Assembly: GCF_029215955.1 (NCBI RefSeq)
Contig: NZ_JAEMVA010000006.1
Span: forward strand, 1-64,000
From: Sulfurimonas sp. SAG-AH-194-I05
Lineage (GTDB): Bacteria > Campylobacterota > Campylobacteria > Campylobacterales > Sulfurimonadaceae
Reading direction: 5' to 3'
DNA: 64,000 nt
A program made the position numbers and the translations under genes. The notes beneath the pieces were generated by a model. It was not told the DNA's origin. It did not search any database and saw only the letters and a list, made by a program, of their open reading frames with translations. How positions within the stretch are numbered: the stretch's first letter is position 1; every line of letters begins with the position of its first letter. Shown in pieces: positions 3,135-24,241 of this stretch.

Positions 3135-4369
3135 TATTGCGCTGCTTGTAAAAAATCACTGATAATATCTTGAGGGTTTTCAAGACCTATTGAAATACGT
3201 ATTAAACCATCTGTAATTCCAAGAAAATCTTTTGTTTCATCATCAAAATCACTATATATAGTTGATGCCATGTGGAGTGCTAATGTTCTACTATCACCAA
3301 TATTTGCTGTAATAATTGCAAGTTTTGTTTTATTTAAAAAGGCAAAGGCTTTTTCTTTTGTTTGCATGTCGATAGTTAAAAGTGTTCCACAACCATTTTT
3401 AAATTCTGTTGTGTATAAAGTATGATGTGGATGAGATTTTAAACATGGATGGTTTATATTTAAACCATTTCTATCAAGTTCTTTAGCTATTGTCTCTACA
3501 CTTTTAACAATTCTATCCATTCTTAAAGGAAGGGTTTCTAAGCCTAACATTGTTTGATAAGAAGCATGTGCATTTGCACTCATTCCAAAGTCACGCATTA
3601 CACGTTTTTTAGCATTTGGAACAAGTGCCATTTTCCCAACTTTTTTTATAAAAGGATGTACTTCTGCATATCTGTCAGTTTTAAATTTGTCGTCGCCATC
3701 ATTAATAGCTCGAAATACTGCACAACCACCAAGAGCTGAAGCGTTTCCTGTAATGATCTTTGTAGTTGAGTAAACAACAATGTCAGCACCAAGCTTAAGT
3801 GGAGATATACTGAGTGGCGTAATAGTATTGTCAACCATTAAAACTATACCTGCTTTATTTGCTATTGTAGCAATAGCTTTAATATTTGGAAGTCGCATAT
3901 TTGGATTGCCAACACTTTCTAAAAATATAATTTTTGTATTTTCATTAATAGTGCTTTTGATATTCTCTAATTCTTCTACATCAAAAAAATGTGTAGTTAT
4001 ACCAAAACGTCTAAGTGTTTCATTAAACAAGGCATACGTTCCACCAAAAAGTCCACCAATAGAAATAATTTCATTGCCACATGCTAAAAGTGACATTGTT
4101 GCTAGTGTAGTAGCTGCCATGCCTGAACTTGTTGCTATTGCTCCAACTCCTCCGTCCATCTCTGCTAAAATAGATTCTAGTTTTGCAGTAGTAGGATTAC
4201 CCACTCGCGAGTAAAGAGGTTTTTTAACGCTGCCATCAAAAATACCTTCTCCTATTTCTGGAGTTCCATAGGCAAACGATGCTGAATTAATAACAGCTGG
4301 GCTAATAGCACCTTCTCTGTTACCAACACTTTGGACAAACTGAGTACAGTATTCTTCAAAATTATTCAT
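3134..4369 (-). CDS. Cys/Met metabolism PLP-dependent enzyme, likely O-acetylhomoserine sulfhydrylase
   Basis: A 411-residue fold-type I PLP enzyme of the cystathionine gamma-synthase / O-acetylhomoserine sulfhydrylase family, acting in methionine or cysteine synthesis. YSRVGNPT at 53-60 is the phosphate-binding signature. VDNT near 179-182 carries the Asp that contacts the pyridine nitrogen. K204 in STTKIITG is the predicted Schiff-base lysine. The sulfhydrylase assignment rests on overall resemblance; gamma-synthase or gamma-lyase activity cannot be excluded by eye. It is first in the run leading to clpS-clpA-aat and overlaps clpS by one base. A TATAAT sits in the 91-base gap upstream. Confidence 0.85.
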   Translation of the reverse strand: MNNFEEYCTQFVQSVGNREGAISPAVINSASFAYGTPEIGEGIFDGSVKKPLYSRVGNPTTAKLESILAEMDGGVGAIATSSGMAATTLATMSLLACGNEIISIGGLFGGTYALFNETLRRFGITTHFFDVEELENIKSTINENTKIIFLESVGNPNMRLPNIKAIATIANKAGIVLMVDNTITPLSISPLKLGADIVVYSTTKIITGNASALGGCAVFRAINDGDDKFKTDRYAEVHPFIKKVGKMALVPNAKKRVMRDFGMSANAHASYQTMLGLETLPLRMDRIVKSVETIAKELDRNGLNINHPCLKSHPHHTLYTTEFKNGCGTLLTIDMQTKEKAFAFLNKTKLAIITANIGDSRTLALHMASTIYSDFDDETKDFLGITDGLIRISIGLENPQDIISDFLQAAQ

Positions 4370-14405: not shown

Positions 14406-15695
14406 ATGGTCTTTACAAACACTTCTTCTAAAACATTTTCTAAAGAGTTCGATGAACTTTTACAAAGAGGAAAAATGGATATGGCACATGTAAGCTCTAT
14501 TGTGGGTGGTATTATTGATGAAATTAAAGCTGAAAAAAATGAGGCTTTAGGGAGACATATCATTAAGTTTGATAACTGGACTCCACAAGTAGAGTCCGAC
14601 CTTAAAATAGAAACTTCAGCTATGGAACAAGCGTATAATATGATTGATGATGACTTAAAAGCAGCACTTCATTTAGCCCATGACAGAATCCGTAGATACC
14701 ATGAGAAACAAAAACCAAAATCATGGTTTGATGATGAGCCAAATGGTACTATTTTAGGGCAACGTGTTACTGCTGTTGAGAGTGCGGGTTTATATATTCC
14801 TGGTGGCAAAGCAGCCTATCCTTCATCACTTTTAATGAATGTCATTCCTGCCCAAGTTGCGGGAGTAGAAAATATTATAGTTTGTACACCAACTCCAGAT
14901 AATAAACCAAATGAACTTCTTTTAGCCGCTTGTCATCTTTGTGGAGTTCAAAACGTATATAAAGTAGGTGGAGCATCTGCCATAGCAGCAATGGCGTATG
15001 GAACAGAGACTATTCCTAAGGTAGATGTTATTACAGGTCCTGGTAATATTTTTGTTGCTACGGCTAAAAAAATGGTTTTTGGCGATGTAAATATAGACAT
15101 GATTGCCGGACCAAGTGAGATTGGAATTCTTGCAGATGATTCAGCAAATGCAAATCATTTAGCGATAGATTTACTTTCTCAAGCTGAACATGATGAAATG
15201 GCAAGTTCTATTTTAATTACTCCTTCTCAAGACTTAGCAGATGCAGTTCAAGAAGAAATAGAGAATTGGTTAGTAAAACTTCCTCGTCAAAAAATAGCAA
15301 GAAAGTCTATTGAAGAACGTGGTGCAATTATAGTTACAAAAACAATGGAAGAAGCAATTTATTTAATGAATAAAATTGCACCTGAGCATTTAGAAGTTGC
15401 AACAAGTTCTCCTTTTGAATTACTTCCTTTAATTAAACATGCTGGAGCTATTTTTTTAGGTCATAATACTCCTGAAGCGATAGGTGATTATGTAGCAGGA
15501 CCTAATCATACTTTACCTACGGGTGGAACAGCAAAATTTTATTCTCCTTTGGGTGTTGAGAATTTCATGAAAAAAACTTCCATTATTTCGTTCTCAAAAA
15601 AAGCAATTAATGAAATAGGAAAAGCCTGTGCCCTCCTTGCAGATACAGAAGGACTCACAGCGCATGCTGAATCTGTTAAAGTAAGACTAGATTAA
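14406..15695 (+). CDS. hisD: histidinol dehydrogenase
   Basis: Catalyses the last two steps of histidine synthesis, oxidising histidinol to histidine with NAD and zinc. The 429 residues contain the signature [10 protein letters not shown], the [15 protein letters not shown] stretch, [22 protein letters not shown] (zinc and base residues) and [10 protein letters not shown]. The start ATG at 14406 has a weak AGGAAATC before it. It stands apart from other his genes, which is common in Campylobacterota. Nothing unusual in length or sequence. Confidence 0.97.
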
Positions 15696-15754
15696 TACTT
15701 AATTAGATATAGTTTTTTATTATAAATTTTAATAAATAATGGAGGCGTTAAGAT

Positions 15755-17479
15755 ATGTTAGATAGTTCCAAAGAAATCACTCTATTATGTAAAGGATTAA
15801 AACTTTTATATGTAGAAGATGATATAAAAACGAGAGAAACTACGCTACATTTTTTAAACAACTTTTTTTCAAATATTATTATTGCAGTAGATGGAGAAGA
15901 TGGTCTCCAGAAATTTAAAGAAAATCCTATTGATATTGTTATGAGTGATATTAATATGCCAAAGCTTAATGGCTTAGCAATGGTTAAAGAAATAAAAAAT
16001 AGTAATGAAGATGTCTCCGTTTTAATGTTTTCAGCACATAGTGATAGTGTTTATTTCTTAGAAGCAATTCAGCTTGATGAAGCAATTCAGCTTGATGTAG
16101 ATGCCTACCTTTTAAAACCTTTAAATTATAAAGCATTCTCTGAGGCTTTAGCTAAAGTCTTAAAAAAAATGCGTTTGCTAAAATTAGCGAAAAACTATCA
16201 AAGCGACTTAGAATTCGAAGTGAAAAAGCAAAACGAAGCGATAATAAAACGGCTTTATTTTGATGACTTGACGAACCTCTATAGTCGGTACTCTTTTTTT
16301 AAAGATCTCGCAGCATTAAAAGCTCCGATGTTACTTCTTATCGATATAGATAATTTTAAAACAATTAATGAAGTTTATGGAAGTGAAATCGGCTCAGAGG
16401 TTTTAGTAAAGTTTGCAACCTATCTTAGTCTGACTCTTGAGAATGAAGTTGATAGTTATACACTTTACCGAATCTCTTCAGATGAGTTTGCACTTTTAGA
16501 TAAAACGGAACATATTATTCCTGAAAAATACGAAATTTTAATAGAAACTCTTTTTAGTAAACTTAATAATCTCACACTTGTAATACATAAGAATAAAATC
16601 ACTATAAATATTACTATAGGTCTCTCAAGTGTGGAAGAGCACTCTTATGAAAGTGCAAAAATAGCACTTGATTATGCTAAAGAGAATAAAAAACCTTATA
16701 TGATGTACTCGCAAGCTATTGATAACCGACGCAATAGTAGTTTAACATTACAATGCAGAGATGTGATTCTTCGTGCAATAGATACAAATGGAGTGGTTAA
16801 CGTTTATCAAGCCATAGTAGATAAAAATGAGAATACCGTTAAGTATGAAACCTTAATGCGACTAAGAAAAGAGAAAAGTTTAAAATTAATTGAACCTTTT
16901 GATTTTTTAGATGTAGCAATTAAAACAAAACTTTATGAACAACTATCAATGCGAGTGATTTTAAAAGCATTAGAAAAAGTAAGAACATCAGAGCATACGC
17001 TCAGTTTAAACTTTACGTATAGCGATATTAAAAACAGAGCACTCTTAGAAAAAATAGAAAGCTTTATGCGTGATAATCCACATGCAGGGAAGCGATGCAT
17101 CTTTGAAATTACAGAAAGTGAAAGTATTGAAAGTTACGAAGATGTTAAAACCTTTATTAAACGTTTCCGTAAGCATGGTGTGCTTATAGCAATTGATGAT
17201 TTTGGAAGTGGGTTTTCAAATTTTGAGTATATTTTAGAAATTGAACCTGATTATTTAAAAATAGATGGTTCGTTAATTAAAGATATTGACACGGATACAA
17301 AAGCATATACTTTAGTCGAAGCAATTGTAGGTTTTTCGCATAAACTTGGAATTAAAGTTATTGCTGAATACGTGCATTCAAAAATTATTTTTGATATGTT
17401 GAAGCAACTTAATGTAGATGAATACCAAGGCTTTTATTTTGCGAAAGCTGTAGAAAATATAGAGAAAGAGAAAAAATGA
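15755..17479 (+). CDS. response regulator with degenerate GGDEF and EAL domain
   Basis: A 574-residue cyclic-di-GMP-related regulator. The receiver (about 12-135) has D65 and K121. The GGDEF domain (about 165-315) has SSDEF at 241-245 and should be catalytically dead, possibly a GTP or ligand sensor. The EAL domain (about 330-570) keeps the key residues: E365 (YETL), LNF, ITESE, DDFGSG, YLKIDG, IAEYV and YQGFYF, so phosphodiesterase activity is likely. An exact 18-base tandem duplication (16061-16096) repeats EAIQLD at 103-108 and 109-114 inside the receiver. GGAGGCG precedes the ATG. The stop overlaps the next gene by 4 bases. Confidence 0.88.
   Translation: MLDSSKEITLLCKGLKLLYVEDDIKTRETTLHFLNNFFSNIIIAVDGEDGLQKFKENPIDIVMSDINMPKLNGLAMVKEIKNSNEDVSVLMFSAHSDSVYFLEAIQLDEAIQLDVDAYLLKPLNYKAFSEALAKVLKKMRLLKLAKNYQSDLEFEVKKQNEAIIKRLYFDDLTNLYSRYSFFKDLAALKAPMLLLIDIDNFKTINEVYGSEIGSEVLVKFATYLSLTLENEVDSYTLYRISSDEFALLDKTEHIIPEKYEILIETLFSKLNNLTLVIHKNKITINITIGLSSVEEHSYESAKIALDYAKENKKPYMMYSQAIDNRRNSSLTLQCRDVILRAIDTNGVVNVYQAIVDKNENTVKYETLMRLRKEKSLKLIEPFDFLDVAIKTKLYEQLSMRVILKALEKVRTSEHTLSLNFTYSDIKNRALLEKIESFMRDNPHAGKRCIFEITESESIESYEDVKTFIKRFRKHGVLIAIDDFGSGFSNFEYILEIEPDYLKIDGSLIKDIDTDTKAYTLVEAIVGFSHKLGIKVIAEYVHSKIIFDMLKQLNVDEYQGFYFAKAVENIEKEKK
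16061..16096 (+). repeat. exact 18-bp tandem duplication inside the receiver-coding region
   Basis: GAAGCAATTCAGCTTGAT occurs twice head to tail. It is in frame and adds six residues in the alpha4-beta5 region of the receiver. Removing one copy restores a normal receiver spacing, so this is a genuine insertion rather than a family feature. Confidence 0.93.
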
Positions 17480-19014
17480 AAATTGATGATATATTAATAT
17501 TAGAAAATTCCAAAAAATTAACAGTTTTGTATGTTGAAGATGATGCAGTGCTGAGAGAATCAACCCAAGAACTTTTTGTTACTTTTTTTCAACAAGTGGA
17601 TATTGGCATAGACGGTAAAGATGGTTTACTGCAATACCAAACATACTATGAAAAAATGGGTAGACATTATGATTTAGTTATAACTGATATACAAATGAGT
17701 TCTATGGATGGTCTTGAAATGGCTAGAAAAATGAAGCTCCTCAATTTTGAACAAGTTATTATTATCATTAGTGCTTTTAATGAAGTAAATTATTTACAAG
17801 AGGCAATACGACTTGGTTTAAATGGCTTTTTAACGAAACCTTTAGAATTAAAACAGGTACGAAATGTTTTGTACCAAACTACGCAACTCATCGCAGAGCG
17901 TATTCTTTTAAATGATTATTATAAGCAAATGGAAGAAAATCAAATAGTAGATAATGACAAAATAGATGCGAGTGGATTTAAAAGTGCACAAAATATAGTA
18001 CATGATTTAGAAAAGAATAAAGAAAAAATACTTCACTTATGGATGAAAAAGCCTGTAGTAAAAGAAAGGCTAGATAAATACTTTATTGATAAAGAGTATT
18101 TCCAAGACCATTATGCTACAAATGTAATAGAATACTTTTTGAGTGTTATCAATGGCGAAAATGATCTAGGGGATTGTCCTGTTATTTTTGCTATGTTAGA
18201 TTTTTTTAAACAAAAAAAAATGTTACTAGCAGATATTTTTATGGTTTGTATTCAGTTTAAAAATACATTAACAGAATATATATTAAGCTCGTACACATAC
18301 AATCAAGAAATATACGAAGATATTTCGATTATTTTAGATAGAAATTTTGAAGGTATGATTACTAATTATTTAAAACTTTATAACTCGAGTGATTATGGTA
18401 AAATAAAAAAAGTCACTAAAATGATTGTTTGGGATGAAGATAATTTAGAAGAAAATGTACAAATAAAAGAAGAAGACACTTCATTAATAACAGAAAGTAA
18501 AGAAGAAATTCCTCCTAAGATAATGGGCGAAGATGCTGAAGAAGAGTTAAACTACACCGACTATGTTTTAGAAACAGATGTCTACGAACTACAGGATTTA
18601 GAAGAAGATATTGACACTTTAGCAATCCTAGTTACGCAACATACTGACACAATAGAAACAAGTATAGAATTAGGTGAAAAAATTTATAGATATGGAAGTA
18701 TACTTGCTAATTATCCATTGTTTTCAAAACTAGGTTCTTCTATCAATAAGCTAGGGATCAATCTTGTTGATCATGCGCAATTGTTATTTGATGATAAAGA
18801 AAGAATGTCCAATATTACAGCGCTCATTGAAGGCTTTGTAAATGATCTCATCGTTTGGAGAAAAGAAATTTTTGAGCATAATATTTCAAACCCACACTTT
18901 TTAGATGATTCATTTTTTTCAAACGTAGATACAATAATTATGTTTATAGAGTATGATGAAAATGCAGTTGTTGAAGAGAATGAACTTGATGATGATATGT
19001 TCTTTGATTTTTAA
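17476..19014 (+). CDS. response regulator with uncharacterised output region
   Basis: A 512-residue protein with an N-terminal receiver (about 14-135; acidic pair E21-D22-D23, D71, K121). I do not recognise the rest. Residues about 165-315 are mainly helical, starting NIVHDLEKNKEKILHLWM, and recall globin-like or HD-like sensory bundles without diagnostic residues. A very acidic linker (about 325-360) leads to a second helical domain (about 365-490), and the end is strongly acidic, finishing DDDMFFDF. There is no DNA-binding, GGDEF, EAL or kinase motif. ATGA overlap with the upstream EAL protein implies coupled translation and shared signalling. No histidine kinase is adjacent. Confidence 0.75.
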   Translation: MKIDDILILENSKKLTVLYVEDDAVLRESTQELFVTFFQQVDIGIDGKDGLLQYQTYYEKMGRHYDLVITDIQMSSMDGLEMARKMKLLNFEQVIIIISAFNEVNYLQEAIRLGLNGFLTKPLELKQVRNVLYQTTQLIAERILLNDYYKQMEENQIVDNDKIDASGFKSAQNIVHDLEKNKEKILHLWMKKPVVKERLDKYFIDKEYFQDHYATNVIEYFLSVINGENDLGDCPVIFAMLDFFKQKKMLLADIFMVCIQFKNTLTEYILSSYTYNQEIYEDISIILDRNFEGMITNYLKLYNSSDYGKIKKVTKMIVWDEDNLEENVQIKEEDTSLITESKEEIPPKIMGEDAEEELNYTDYVLETDVYELQDLEEDIDTLAILVTQHTDTIETSIELGEKIYRYGSILANYPLFSKLGSSINKLGINLVDHAQLLFDDKERMSNITALIEGFVNDLIVWRKEIFEHNISNPHFLDDSFFSNVDTIIMFIEYDENAVVEENELDDDMFFDF

Positions 19015-19228
19015 GTTATTTTATAATCTTTTTTCCAAATTTACCCAACAAACAAAATTCTAAATTAAAGCCTAAGCTATTATAATAATTTTAAGTTCTT
19101 TTTAGATATTATCCAAGTAGTGAAATAGACAAAAAATATCATGAATGGTAATGAAATGTTTATTTTAAATTATATTAGTCATGACAAAATTTTTAAATTT
19201 GCCAATAAACAAGACTAAAGGAGAATAT

Positions 19229-19867
19229 ATGCAATTAGGCTTCCTAGTTGATTTGCACCTATGTATGGGTTGTAAAGGGTGTGAAATCGCATGTAAAGTG
19301 GAAAATGAAGTTCCACTTAGTACATGGAGATTACGTGTTAAGTATGTAGATGTAGGGACTTTCCCAGAGACAAAAAGAACTTTTACACCTTTAAGATGTA
19401 ACCACTGTGAAAATGCTCCTTGTGAGAGAATTTGTCCAGTATCTGCACTTCATTATTTGGATAATGGAATTGTAAACATTGATAAAGAAAGATGTATTGG
19501 TTGTGCTGGTTGTGTTATGGCGTGTCCATATGGAGCAATTTATATTGATCCGATTACACAAACTGCAGATAAATGTACATATTGTGCGCACCGTATCGCT
19601 TCATCTATGATGCCAGCATGTGTTGTTGCTTGTCCCGTTGAGGCAAATATCTTTGGTGACTTAGATGATGCAGCATCAAATATTTCTAAATATATTCAAA
19701 GAAATCAATCAAATGTTCAAGTTCGTAAACCAGAAAAAGGTACAAATCCTCATCATTATTATGTAGGTGGTGGCAATGTTTCATTAAATCCTCTTGCATC
19801 ACAGAGAAATGAAGGGCATAACTTATTTGGTAAAATCACGACACTTCCCGTAGGAGGACACCACTAA
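19229..19867 (+). CDS. PsrB-like [4Fe-4S] electron-transfer subunit of molybdoenzyme
   Basis: A 212-residue ferredoxin-like subunit with four cysteine clusters: CMGCKGCEIACK, CNHCENAPCERICP, CIGCAGCVMACP and CTYCAHRIASSMMPACVVACP, enough for four [4Fe-4S] centres. It would carry electrons between the NrfD membrane subunit and the catalytic subunit. I use the ATG at 19229, preceded by AAAGGAGAATAT, instead of the longer frame from 19181, which would put 16 unlikely residues in front. The stop overlaps the next start (TAATG). No signal peptide: it is probably exported in complex with the Tat-targeted large subunit. Confidence 0.92.
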   Translation: MQLGFLVDLHLCMGCKGCEIACKVENEVPLSTWRLRVKYVDVGTFPETKRTFTPLRCNHCENAPCERICPVSALHYLDNGIVNIDKERCIGCAGCVMACPYGAIYIDPITQTADKCTYCAHRIASSMMPACVVACPVEANIFGDLDDAASNISKYIQRNQSNVQVRKPEKGTNPHHYYVGGGNVSLNPLASQRNEGHNLFGKITTLPVGGHH

Positions 19868-20769
19868 TGGCAGCACATGAAATATTAGCAGCTACACAAG
19901 CTGTGGTAACTTTAGATGTAGCACTTCCAGGTACAGTTTGGCCTTGGTTAGTTACAGTTAATATGTGGGCAAAAAGTATTGGTACCGGTGTGATTTTCAT
20001 GCTATTCTTACTTCTTAGAACACATCCAGAATCAGGAAAGCAATTGCGATTTTTAACTGCTGCAACTGCATTTGTATTTATTAATATCTTTTTATTATTT
20101 ACGCTCGCTGACTTGCACCAACCATTTAGAATGTGGCATATATTTTTCCATCCTCATTGGTCTTCTGCAATTACATGGGGCTCATTTATGGCTTCAGCAT
20201 TTTTAGGTTTACTAACACTATTAGTATTTCTTTCATATACTAAAAAAGATGAAACATATGACAAAATATTGTTGTGGACTACTATTTTAGCGATTCCAGT
20301 TACACTTTATACAGCAGCACTTCTTTCACAGTGTACTGCACGTGAGCTATGGCAAATGCCAGCTGAGTCTGCTCAAATGATTCTTGCAGCAACATTGTCA
20401 GGTTCAGCAGCCATGATTCTTTTAGGTGGAAATAAACTTTCATATGAAGCAAAAAAATCTATGGGAGTGATCCTTGGTTTAAGTGCTTTAATGGCGTTTA
20501 TTATTTATATGTCTGAGTATGTATTTGGACCAATGAAAGCAGAAGAAATTGCAGCTACTATTGAGTATATCAAAGGTGATGGACCTTATGCAGTAATGTT
20601 CTGGATAGGTCAGTGGATGACATATATATTACCTATGTTACTTATTGTATTAAGTCGTGCAAGCAAATCTGAATCAATCTTAAAATTAGCAGCTATTTTA
20701 GCGCTAGTGGGTCTATTTATAGTTAAACATGTTTGGCTAATGATTCCACAATTATTACCAATGAGTTAG
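19867..20769 (+). CDS. NrfD/PsrC-type membrane subunit
   Basis: A 300-residue inner-membrane protein with about eight transmembrane segments, matching the NrfD/PsrC family that exchanges electrons with menaquinone. GTVWPWLVTVNMWAKSIGTG near 22-41 is the conserved N-terminal region, and DLHQPFRMWHIFFHPHWSSAITWGS near 77-102 is the loop and helix typical of the family. No haem-binding motifs are expected. It sits between the FeS and molybdenum subunits, overlapping the first by one base and 13 bases from the second. Confidence 0.9.
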   Translation: MAAHEILAATQAVVTLDVALPGTVWPWLVTVNMWAKSIGTGVIFMLFLLLRTHPESGKQLRFLTAATAFVFINIFLLFTLADLHQPFRMWHIFFHPHWSSAITWGSFMASAFLGLLTLLVFLSYTKKDETYDKILLWTTILAIPVTLYTAALLSQCTARELWQMPAESAQMILAATLSGSAAMILLGGNKLSYEAKKSMGVILGLSALMAFIIYMSEYVFGPMKAEEIAATIEYIKGDGPYAVMFWIGQWMTYILPMLLIVLSRASKSESILKLAAILALVGLFIVKHVWLMIPQLLPMS

Positions 20770-20782
20770 GGAGAAATATTTA

Positions 20783-23700
20783 ATGTATTTACAAAGTAGA
20801 AGAACATTTTTAAAAGGTGCTGCATTTACAGTTGCAGGTGCCGCTATCGCTAAGGGTGTATTTACAGCTGATGCTATGGCAGAATCTGTTAAACAAAGCA
20901 AATTTACAGACACACCAGACTCATTAGCATTCTATCCTCCAATGGAAGAATGGGATGATTTTAAAGAGTTAGATGGTGATGACTGGAAACGTGGTGGTAT
21001 AGAGCGCAAAGGTGTCCGTTCAGAAGATAATCCTGATGGAATAGAAGTAAATGATTTTATGATCATTCCTACAGCATGTTCTAACTGTGAGGCATCATGT
21101 GGTTTAACAGCTTGGGTTGATAAGAAAACTTTTACAGTTAAAAAGTATATGGGTAATCCTCTTCATGCAGGTTCTCGTGGACGTAACTGTGCAAAAGGTT
21201 ATGCAACACAATCACAAATGTATGATCCAGATAGAATAGCATTCCCTCTTAAACGTGCTCCAGGTTCTGCTCGTGGTGAAGGGAAATGGATTCGTACTAC
21301 TTGGGACGAAGCTATGACTACTATCGGTAACAAGATGCATGATGCTATGAAAGATGGCGACGAGTTATCTAAAAAATCATGTATGTTTCATGTTGGACGT
21401 CCAAATGAGAATGGTTTTACTGGTAAAGTTTGGCATACTCTTGGTCAAGATTGTTTCAACTCACATACAAATATTTGTTCATCTGGTGGTCGTACTCCGA
21501 CAATTCAGTGGTCAAATGATGATAGATCTTCACCAGATTGGGCAAATGCGAAATTAATTTTCCTTAACTCTTCACATGCTGCGGATGCTGGTCACTACTT
21601 CCAACAAGCTGCTGGGCATATCGCTGATGCAAGAGCGAAGGGTGCTAAACTTGTAGTTATGGATCCTCGTATGTCTAACTCTGCTGGTATGGCGGACCTT
21701 TGGATTGCTGCATGGCCTGGTACTGAAGCTGCTATTTACTTATACCTATGTCAACGTATGTTAAACGAAGGTAAGGTAAATAAAGCATTTGTTAAAAAAT
21801 GGTTTAACTGGGAAGTAATGATGGATAATACTAATTATCTTGAATTCATGGTAAAAGAAGGTTATATCTCTGCTGTTCCTACTGAGAAAACTTTTGATGC
21901 TTACATGGGTATGCTAAAAGAACTTTATAATCCGTATACTTTAGAATATGCTGTTAAAGAAACACATGTTCCTGCGTATAAATTAGAGCAATTATACGAC
22001 ATGGTTATTTGGGCTGAAACTTCAATTTCATCGTACTTCTGGCGTGCTGCTGCTGCTGGAAATCGTGGTGGTTGGACTTCTGGAAGAACAGGTTTTCTTA
22101 TGCTTGGTCTTCGTGGAGCAATTGGTCCAGAGGGTGGAACATTCTTCCATCACTGGCATGTAATTTCTGTTGCTGGTAAAGGTGGTTCTTCGACTGTTGG
22201 TCAGGGTGCACGTGGTTCAAACGTTCCTAAAATCGATATTTATAACGAACTTTCATTCCCACCAGAATGGCCATTATCATCATATGAAATGTCTTTCTTG
22301 CTTCCACATTTACTTGCAGATACTGAATGGCAAGATAAATGGATAGCAAAGGGTCTTAATGTACCTAAAAAGCTTTCTGTTTGGATTCCTCGTATGTATA
22401 ACCCAGTTTGGATTAACCCAGATGGTTTTAGATGGATTGAAACGATTAAAGATGAGTCTAAAATGGAACTTACATTTAACTTATCACCAACGTGGTCTGA
22501 GACGAACTGGTATGTAGATTATATTTTACCAGTTGGTTTAGCTGGAGAGAGACACGATCAACATTCTGAAGCTACTATGCCTGCACGTTGGACGTCATTC
22601 CGTCAACCTGTTATGCGTGTTGCCTTAGAAAAAATGGGATGGAAACCAAACAATCCAGCTCGTGCTACTCTTGAAGCGCATATTAAAGCTGGTCTTGGTG
22701 AAGTTTGGGAAGAAAATGAGTTCTGGTTTGACATGTGTGTTAATTATATTGACCCTAAGGGTGATTTATTTATTGATGATGCTAAAACTAAAACTGTTCA
22801 TTCCATGTGGGAATCTAAAAAAACTCCAGGTACTCCAGTTACTATTGCTGAGTGGTATGATGCAGCATTTGGTGATAACTTACCGAACTTGAAAAAAACT
22901 GCAACTGAAGATGCTAGATACAAAGATGCTGAATTCCCAGTATACGAGTATATGAGAGATCACGGTGCTTGGATGGAAGAAAACCATATTTATTCTCCAC
23001 AAGAAAGACCAGTTGAATTTGATGGTGAGCACCTTATTGCCCATGGTCACAAGTATAAAAAAGAAGAACTTACTAAAAATGAAACAACGGGTGTAATTTA
23101 TGCTAAAGATCATCATGGTGATGGGAAGTATAAAGACGACTTAAAACCTGTCGCTATCGAAATAGATGGTGAGATTATGGAAGGTTTTGCTACGCTTGAT
23201 AAAAAACTAGACTTTTTCTGTGATTGGTTAGCTGATGATTGGAAATGGCCAGAATATGCTGTTCCAATTTACCCAAGAAGTGAAGAAGAAAAGAAAAAAA
23301 TGGTTCATATTACATCGCATGTAAATCACATGTATATGGAAAAAGAAAAAAATGAGTACGCGCTAAATACTGTTTTTCGTTTACCATATAATATTCATAC
23401 GCGTTCTGCTAATAGTAAGCACCTTATGGAAATTTCTCAAAATCATGACCCTATTTGGATTTCAACTCCAGATGCTGCACGTCAAGGTCTTAAACGTGGT
23501 GATGCGATTCGTGTAAGAATCGTAGATACTGTAAAAAAAGATGCAAATGGTAATGATATGGAATCAGGTTACTTTGTAGCTATGGCAGTGCCAACTGAAG
23601 GAATTTTACCTGGTACTCTAGCATGTTCTCATCATGGTGGAAGATGGAAACTAGTTAACTCTGTTTCAGTTCCAAATGGTGTGACCGATGGTAAAGTTAC

Positions 23701-24241
23701 TTCTCAACCTATTAAACGTGACATGAACGACCCTAAATTTATGGCACACTCTCCGGAGAATGTTGGTAAAGAAGGTGCGCAAATTACAATTGAAGATTAT
23801 GATGGTACATCAGGAATAAATAGTTATGGTGTTCCAACAGCTGAGCTTCAAATGGATGGTAAGGTTGGTAAACTGAAGTATACACAAGGTATTGTTCCTT
23901 TTCATGCTGATAGATTTGCTGATTACAACAAAGATAGTGGAAATATTTGGTGGGATGGTCTGAGTGGTTCATGGCAAAATGCTGTAGCTGCTGTTCATCC
24001 TGACCCGATTTCTGGTATGCATTGTTGGCATCAAAAAGTTATAGTAGAACCTGCGCAACCAGGTGATAAAATTGGTGACATTTATGTTAACTATGAAAAT
24101 AACTTTGAAATTTACAAAGGTTGGAGAGATGATTTAACGCGTGGTCTTGATGAAAATTCAACCAAACGTCGTCCTCAACATATTAAACGTCCTTGGGTTC
24201 CATTATCAAGTAAAGCGTATAGAGTAAACATTAAAAAGTAA
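20783..24241 (+). CDS. Tat-exported molybdopterin oxidoreductase, PsrA/TtrA/SoeA-like
   Basis: Catalytic subunit of 1152 residues from the DMSO reductase superfamily, acting in the periplasm. The Tat signal is SRRTFLKG at 5-12 with a hydrophobic stretch to about 30. The N-terminal [4Fe-4S] ligands are C99, C102, C106 and C136. HTNICSSGG around 229-236 lies where the molybdenum ligand is expected, C232 being the candidate. The C-terminal molydopterin-binding domain begins near 870 and includes LKRGDAIRVRI. Typical PsrA/PhsA proteins are about 750 residues, so this is unusually large, with extra sequence around 650-850. Polysulfide, thiosulfate, tetrathionate, arsenate or sulfite are possible substrates. 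No TorD-like chaperone is adjacent. Confidence 0.85.
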   Translation: MYLQSRRTFLKGAAFTVAGAAIAKGVFTADAMAESVKQSKFTDTPDSLAFYPPMEEWDDFKELDGDDWKRGGIERKGVRSEDNPDGIEVNDFMIIPTACSNCEASCGLTAWVDKKTFTVKKYMGNPLHAGSRGRNCAKGYATQSQMYDPDRIAFPLKRAPGSARGEGKWIRTTWDEAMTTIGNKMHDAMKDGDELSKKSCMFHVGRPNENGFTGKVWHTLGQDCFNSHTNICSSGGRTPTIQWSNDDRSSPDWANAKLIFLNSSHAADAGHYFQQAAGHIADARAKGAKLVVMDPRMSNSAGMADLWIAAWPGTEAAIYLYLCQRMLNEGKVNKAFVKKWFNWEVMMDNTNYLEFMVKEGYISAVPTEKTFDAYMGMLKELYNPYTLEYAVKETHVPAYKLEQLYDMVIWAETSISSYFWRAAAAGNRGGWTSGRTGFLMLGLRGAIGPEGGTFFHHWHVISVAGKGGSSTVGQGARGSNVPKIDIYNELSFPPEWPLSSYEMSFLLPHLLADTEWQDKWIAKGLNVPKKLSVWIPRMYNPVWINPDGFRWIETIKDESKMELTFNLSPTWSETNWYVDYILPVGLAGERHDQHSEATMPARWTSFRQPVMRVALEKMGWKPNNPARATLEAHIKAGLGEVWEENEFWFDMCVNYIDPKGDLFIDDAKTKTVHSMWESKKTPGTPVTIAEWYDAAFGDNLPNLKKTATEDARYKDAEFPVYEYMRDHGAWMEENHIYSPQERPVEFDGEHLIAHGHKYKKEELTKNETTGVIYAKDHHGDGKYKDDLKPVAIEIDGEIMEGFATLDKKLDFFCDWLADDWKWPEYAVPIYPRSEEEKKKMVHITSHVNHMYMEKEKNEYALNTVFRLPYNIHTRSANSKHLMEISQNHDPIWISTPDAARQGLKRGDAIRVRIVDTVKKDANGNDMESGYFVAMAVPTEGILPGTLACSHHGGRWKLVNSVSVPNGVTDGKVTSQPIKRDMNDPKFMAHSPENVGKEGAQITIEDYDGTSGINSYGVPTAELQMDGKVGKLKYTQGIVPFHADRFADYNKDSGNIWWDGLSGSWQNAVAAVHPDPISGMHCWHQKVIVEPAQPGDKIGDIYVNYENNFEIYKGWRDDLTRGLDENSTKRRPQHIKRPWVPLSSKAYRVNIKK

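Follow-up and report, generated by a model that had tools for sequence, protein, structure and literature searches.

A Sulfurimonas response regulator with a predicted globin-fold domain and an undescribed output domain ending in an acidic, phenylalanine-terminated tail

Introduction

The N-terminal domain of RsbR is known to be a non-heme globin (PMC6614362). Other globin-like sensor domains are those of pXO1-118 and pXO2-61 (PDB 3pmd and 3pmc), which are free-standing Bacillus sporulation inhibitors. Noncanonical-output response regulators combine an N-terminal intact receiver (REC) domain with an output that does not bind DNA. Of the response regulators of free-living Campylobacterota, one in five is reported to carry an output whose function is mostly unknown; unknown too are many of the chemosensory outputs of species with several chemosensory classes (PMC9239204).

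The locus described here lies in a window of 64,000 nucleotides (the whole stretch analyzed) from Sulfurimonas sp. SAG-AH-194-I05 and consists of two overlapping genes, ORF1 and ORF2. ORF2 is best read as an atypical, non-DNA-binding response regulator of an undescribed family defined by its second C-terminal block, block 2. It resembles the noncanonical-output regulators in its N-terminal intact REC domain and its non-DNA-binding output, and neither block 2 nor its acidic, Phe-ended tail is described in the libraries searched. The first block, block 1, compares with the N-domain of RsbR from the Bacillus subtilis stressosome (2bnl): both have a globin fold (predicted for block 1) with no family-wide heme-ligand histidine and are fused to a signaling module. 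Unlike RsbR, block 1 has neither a Pfam match nor a STAS partner, carries an invariant cysteine pair (C234/C258) and is fused to REC/block 2, GGDEF or a histidine kinase.

Organization of the gene pair

The features of the locus, all on the forward strand, are as follows.

15755 to 17479, forward: ORF1, REC-degenerate GGDEF (SSDEF)-EAL protein, 574 aa (open reading frame list, Pfam, motif positions)
16061 to 16096, forward: 18-bp perfect tandem duplication in the ORF1 REC domain, EAIQLD EAIQLD, before beta-5, EAIQLDEAIQLD (sequence, alignment)
17476 to 17479, forward: ATGA stop/start overlap of ORF1 and ORF2 (sequence)
17476 to 19014, forward: ORF2, REC-block 1-acidic linker-block 2-acidic tail, 512 aa (open reading frame list, Pfam, structure predictions)
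17524 to 17868, forward: ORF2 receiver domain, residues 17 to 131, with acceptor D71, S99 and K121 (Pfam, motif positions)
17989 to 18387, forward: block 1, residues ~172 to 304, predicted non-heme globin fold, RsbR-N-like (model, Foldseek, alignment)
18175 to 18177 and 18247 to 18249, forward: invariant cysteines C234 and C258 of block 1 (alignment)
18388 to 18570, forward: acidic linker, residues ~305 to 365 (sequence)
18571 to 18978, forward: block 2, residues ~366 to 501, five-helix output domain of an undescribed Campylobacterota family (profile searches, model)
18979 to 19011, forward: C-terminal acidic tail ending in Phe (...ELDDDMFFDF), family-wide (tail census)
19181 to 24241, forward: downstream molybdoenzyme operon with Fe-S subunit, NrfD-like subunit and 1152-aa catalytic subunit (conserved right flank)

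Coordinates, lengths and domains agreed with the initial annotation, which had described a REC/degenerate-GGDEF/EAL gene overlapping that of a 512-residue REC protein by ATGA. Pfam placed the REC domain of ORF1 at residues 18 to 131, GGDEF at 168 to 309 and EAL at 338 to 564, the last with 190.5 bits. The GGDEF motif has degenerated to SSDEF (residues 241 to 245); the EAL residues that we take to be catalytic (E365, N419, E451, D481/D482, K502, E538, and Q558) are all there, and the presumed acceptor residues of the REC domain (D65, S93, K121) are intact, these roles being assigned, in ORF2 as well, from family knowledge. Judged by its sequence, ORF1 is probably an active, phospho-regulated c-di-GMP phosphodiesterase, predicted to be co-translated with ORF2 here. 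The 18-bp duplication was found neither in the two ORF1 orthologs nor in two paralogs; it could perturb the stretch from alpha4 to beta5, or it could be an assembly or recent mutational event.

The REC domain of ORF2 matched Response_reg with 64.8 bits against a cut-off of 30.2 and is complete, with the acidic pair D22/D23, acceptor D71, S99, and K121. Beyond residues 17 to 131, Pfam gave no match to ORF2 even at E<=10 and NCBIfam likewise returned only REC, and the last ~340 residues matched nothing in Pfam, NCBIfam, or PDB sequences. Relatives of the two blocks showed no consistent Pfam match and no PDB sequence match; NCBIfam, run on block 2 relatives only, had none for them either. The succession of helical block, acidic linker, second helical block, and acidic end that had been read from the letters was seen again in the structure predictions; the anatomy of ORF2 is well supported. 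The two blocks were also considered as homologs of each other and this was rejected (profile comparison probability, 0.4%).

The region after REC had been called unrecognized. That description held for all sequence libraries and for the structure of block 2, while block 1 is predicted to resemble the RsbR globin and appears to be a recognizable fold in a new setting. A clear match to a known output domain was named as the result that would speak against novelty, and Pfam and PDB searches and the block 2 structure gave none. Block 2 with its tail is a real family, undescribed as far as the searched libraries and open-licence papers show.

A predicted globin fold in block 1

The AlphaFold2 model of block 1, built on 11 rows from window and genome-contig sequences, reached a pLDDT of 85.5 and a pTM of 0.78. 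Its top Foldseek match in the PDB was the RsbR N-domain 2bnl (prob 1.00, TM 0.63/0.70, E 0.04). The pXO1-118/pXO2-61 domains ranked second and ninth (prob 1.00) with the highest TM-scores, 0.67-0.68/0.66-0.77, at 18 to 19% identity in the structural alignment. Together the RsbR and pXO matches span TM 0.61 to 0.77, and globins and phycobiliproteins rank after them. Because the Foldseek E-values are weak (0.04 to 0.5) despite probabilities of 1.00, the assignment is one of fold and not of family membership. Neither block 1 nor its relatives matched a globin or RsbR model in Pfam or any PDB sequence. The model predicts, with moderate strength, that block 1 adopts a non-heme globin fold like that of the RsbR N-domain.

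Seven residues (C234, P235, C258, W189, F209, G232, and N290) are invariant in all 39 distinct block 1 sequences. No family-wide histidine was found in this set; the only His-rich columns, 202 and 260, hold Tyr and Gln in ORF2. These features suggest that block 1 may be a thiol-, redox-, or ligand-sensing input domain, while conservation of C234 and C258 could be structural instead of sensory.

Block 1 is a portable input domain, found in the architectures REC-B1-B2, B1-B2, B1-GGDEF, and B1-kinase(-REC) and as a stand-alone protein of a SiaABC-like operon; fusion to STAS is absent among those seen (REC/B2, GGDEF, kinase, or stand-alone). B1-B2 proteins lacking REC are present in other families of the order (loci L011, L013, and L014). 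The window's own genome encodes three block 1 paralogs (matching query residues 164 to 300), one before GGDEF, one before a histidine kinase and one stand-alone. In this one genome, the cysteine-marked input of predicted non-heme globin fold is combined with kinases, with diguanylate cyclases, and with a SiaABC-like operon.

The stand-alone copy recalls the SiaABCD biofilm pathway of Pseudomonas aeruginosa, as it lies in a SiaA/SiaB/SiaC-like operon and another block 1 fronts GGDEF. The order of that operon (locus L050, 7571 to 14139, contig G000:C56) is SiaA-REC-SiaB-SiaC-HD-GYP-block1-SiaC, with a SiaA-like phosphatase, an HD-GYP-like protein, and a second SiaC-like gene after block 1. It holds no SiaD-like cyclase, and the block 1-GGDEF protein is encoded elsewhere (G000:C45). 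The N-terminal part of SiaD is a coiled-coil stalk (PMC8457831), and with block 1 globin-like, the stalk was rejected as a relative. In most genomes of the genus (L057 to L081) we also observed one hybrid kinase of the form block 1-(PAS)-kinase(-REC) that shares the invariant cysteines, its gene usually downstream of a ~270-aa open reading frame that looks peptide-deformylase-like by eye.

Block 2 and its C-terminal tail

The block 2 model, built on 11 sequences, shows five main helices (pLDDT 84.3, pTM 0.80). Its search against the PDB and viral models gave nothing convincing, the best PDB match being PdhR (prob 0.69, TM 0.49). Profile searches detected 75 copies of block 2 (E to 1e-45), spread over 10 of 58 genera and 32 of 298 Campylobacterota genomes. 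Among 60 relatives, 24 have it, with up to 13 copies per genome; no paralog was found in the window's genome, which is 85% complete. Most often block 2 forms the C-terminal end of a REC protein, after a middle segment that varies and is unmatched in Pfam; "undescribed output domain" is a fair description of block 2. The middle segments at L018, L022, and L023 make up at least two further Pfam-unmatched families, which we named mid18 and mid23. CheO of Campylobacter jejuni (PMC9665402) was considered as a possible relative and is a lead at most, block 2 having been found in only 10 genera by the phylum searches.

Among the block 2 proteins whose C-terminus is complete (58 distinct sequences), 55 have exactly Phe as their last residue, and a Phe end together with at least 4 acidic residues in the last 12 was seen in 47 of the 58, compared with 1 of 375 controls (the other proteins of the same loci); as related sequences these are not independent trials, and a Fisher value on them is no true probability. 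Members that share only ~25% identity in the domain still retain the tail. SSB-Ct and CheZ have acidic C-terminal docking tails with a hydrophobic end. By analogy, the pattern points to a C-terminal docking peptide with putative binding via the terminal Phe. The case for a docking output of block 2 consists solely of tail conservation and genomic context.

Proposed mechanism

We put at about even odds the reading that ORF2 is an accessory response regulator under kinase control and that its output module displays a docking tail for a partner. A histidine kinase, which adjoins ORF2 in three relatives and would be encoded elsewhere in the window's genome, would phosphorylate D71. In the same chain this phospho-signal would be joined with a second input, that of block 1 with its globin-fold domain and invariant cysteine pair, and the combined inputs would alter the five-helix block 2. 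Block 2 would then offer its acidic Phe-ended peptide to a partner protein, much as an SSB or CheZ docking tail might.

More tentatively, and at odds clearly below even, block 2 and the tail may form a phylum-specific, phospho-switched docking module that chemosensory arrays, orphan response regulators, and globin-fold sensors would employ in parallel, all of them leading to one receptor protein. If true, a shared output route would stand behind a large class of Campylobacterota response regulators of obscure output. The family offers a concrete output module for some such regulators, with a near-universal C-terminal peptide as bait for partners.

Linkage of ORF1 and ORF2 among relatives

A dedicated ORF1-ORF2 complex, in which phosphorylated ORF2 would control the EAL phosphodiesterase and c-di-GMP breakdown, is the strongest of the alternatives and still unlikely. 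The ATGA overlap in the window is in its favor, as are the abutting genes of locus L085 (without a kinase, like the window) and the near-adjacency in L091. So too are a B1-B2 protein without REC 15 bp downstream of a dCache-GGDEF-EAL protein (L090) and the B1-GGDEF fusion. Against it stands the distribution of the genes. A scan of 84,980 genomes yielded ten loci with block 1-block 2 proteins, six of them close ORF2 orthologs (about 50% identity) from Sulfurimonas or Helicobacteraceae. Genome searches found an ORF1 ortholog in only 2 of these 10 genomes and none in the other 8, including 4 of the 6 with close orthologs, several of the genomes being draft MAGs in which absences are soft. An EAL neighbor is lacking for most block 2 proteins.

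In L091 the order is hisD-ORF1-kinase-ORF2-convergent OmpR-type regulator-regulatory genes-molybdoenzyme operon, with the kinase between the two genes. ORF2 stands without an adjoining ORF1 in L082, L083, and L084, and in L082 and L084, where ORF1 is absent, a DUF7494-type protein precedes it. A histidine kinase lies directly upstream of ORF2 in L083, L087, and L091, so the initial statement that no kinase or regulator gene adjoins applies to the window and fails for these orthologs. A phospho-controlled complex linking the ORF2 effector to c-di-GMP breakdown had been proposed, and co-occurrence of the two genes had been named as a check; the relatives with unlinked genes and the kinase intervening in L091 tell against such coupling as the conserved system and leave the novelty of the output domain untouched. 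Because the kinase separates the genes in L091 and an ORF1 ortholog was found in only two genomes, the window pair is most simply explained by loss of an intervening kinase gene or by independent placing at one site, and not as an obligate couple. ORF1 is not an obligate partner of ORF2, and a link to c-di-GMP, though possible, is not conserved.

In L082, the gene before ORF2 (785 aa) was considered as a sensor kinase gene and rejected, as it encodes the DUF7494 protein without a kinase domain. In L091 (3053 to 4754), a 101-aa open reading frame after the kinase gene resembles a second, truncated HATPase piece.

The junction with the molybdoenzyme operon

It is rather improbable that the module serves the neighboring molybdoenzyme complex as a regulatory add-on, responding for example to its electron acceptor. 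In favor of this reading, the molybdoenzyme operon lies to the right of the module in five of the six ortholog loci (L082, L084, L085, L087, and L091), as in the window. On the left, L082 and L084 have a different flank, and a convergent regulator of the OmpR type comes after ORF2 in L085, L087, and L091. However, the enzyme is present in 42 of 60 relatives, nearly all without ORF2, and ORF2 of L083 lies elsewhere, not adjoining the operon; the junction may be a permissive insertion site. It looks like an insertion site, and the insert is somewhat poorer in GC (28.6% versus 33.2%). ORF1 and ORF2 were not found at the junction in 11 other genomes of the genus, which have none or one unrelated gene there. 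In the relatives, this hisD/molybdoenzyme junction (window 14406 to 24241; L174 to L187) is either empty or occupied by a protein of ~160 aa, by one of 412 aa, or by the signaling module.

Chemosensory and kinase neighborhoods of block 2

Block 2 recurs in several types of chemosensory operon and with kinase-linked regulators. In a sample of 36 block 2 loci, the same directon held che genes in 15, a histidine kinase in 16, and either in 21 (che identities by Pfam for L045, L047, and L048, and by BLAST to those for the remaining loci). Three gene orders recurred, namely kinase-[REC-mid-block2]-cheY-like-cheW-mcp-orf87-cheA-cheR, cheA-(cheW)-~90-aa open reading frame-ParA-like-REC-kinase-[REC-mid-block2], and mcp-cheW-REC protein-cheR-cheB-[block2]-~136-aa open reading frame.

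These neighborhoods bear on two further readings of block 2. It could be a phosphatase of the CheZ type, or a tail module that binds phospho-REC, with CheY-like proteins as its targets; we consider this slightly less probable than the molybdoenzyme add-on. Block 2 proteins do adjoin cheY-like genes in chemosensory operons, and their acidic, hydrophobic-ended tail recalls what we know of the CheY-binding end of CheZ. The Campylobacterota CheZ, encoded upstream of trhP, is likewise a helical chemotaxis protein with an acidic, hydrophobic C-terminal end, but it has no detectable homology to block 2: an hhalign comparison with a Campylobacterota CheZ alignment, built via trhP synteny, gave a probability of 0.3%, the block 2 alignments have no conserved counterpart of the CheZ QDIHRQ motif, and CheZ is not among the PDB fold matches listed for block 2. 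A histidine phosphotransfer (HPt) relay domain, which a helical bundle C-terminal to REC and phosphorelay-rich operons might suggest, is very improbable, as the block 2 alignments have no invariant His and no Pfam Hpt match and no HPt structure is among the fold matches listed.

Two small conserved proteins accompany block 2 in these operons. The ~136-aa protein is encoded directly after block 2 in operons of the mcp-cheW-cheR-cheB type (L047, 3249 to 3656, a copy with no Pfam match; also L141, L145, and L146). The 87-aa protein, with no Pfam match for its L048 copy (4020 to 4280), lies between mcp and cheA there and in L142 and L150.
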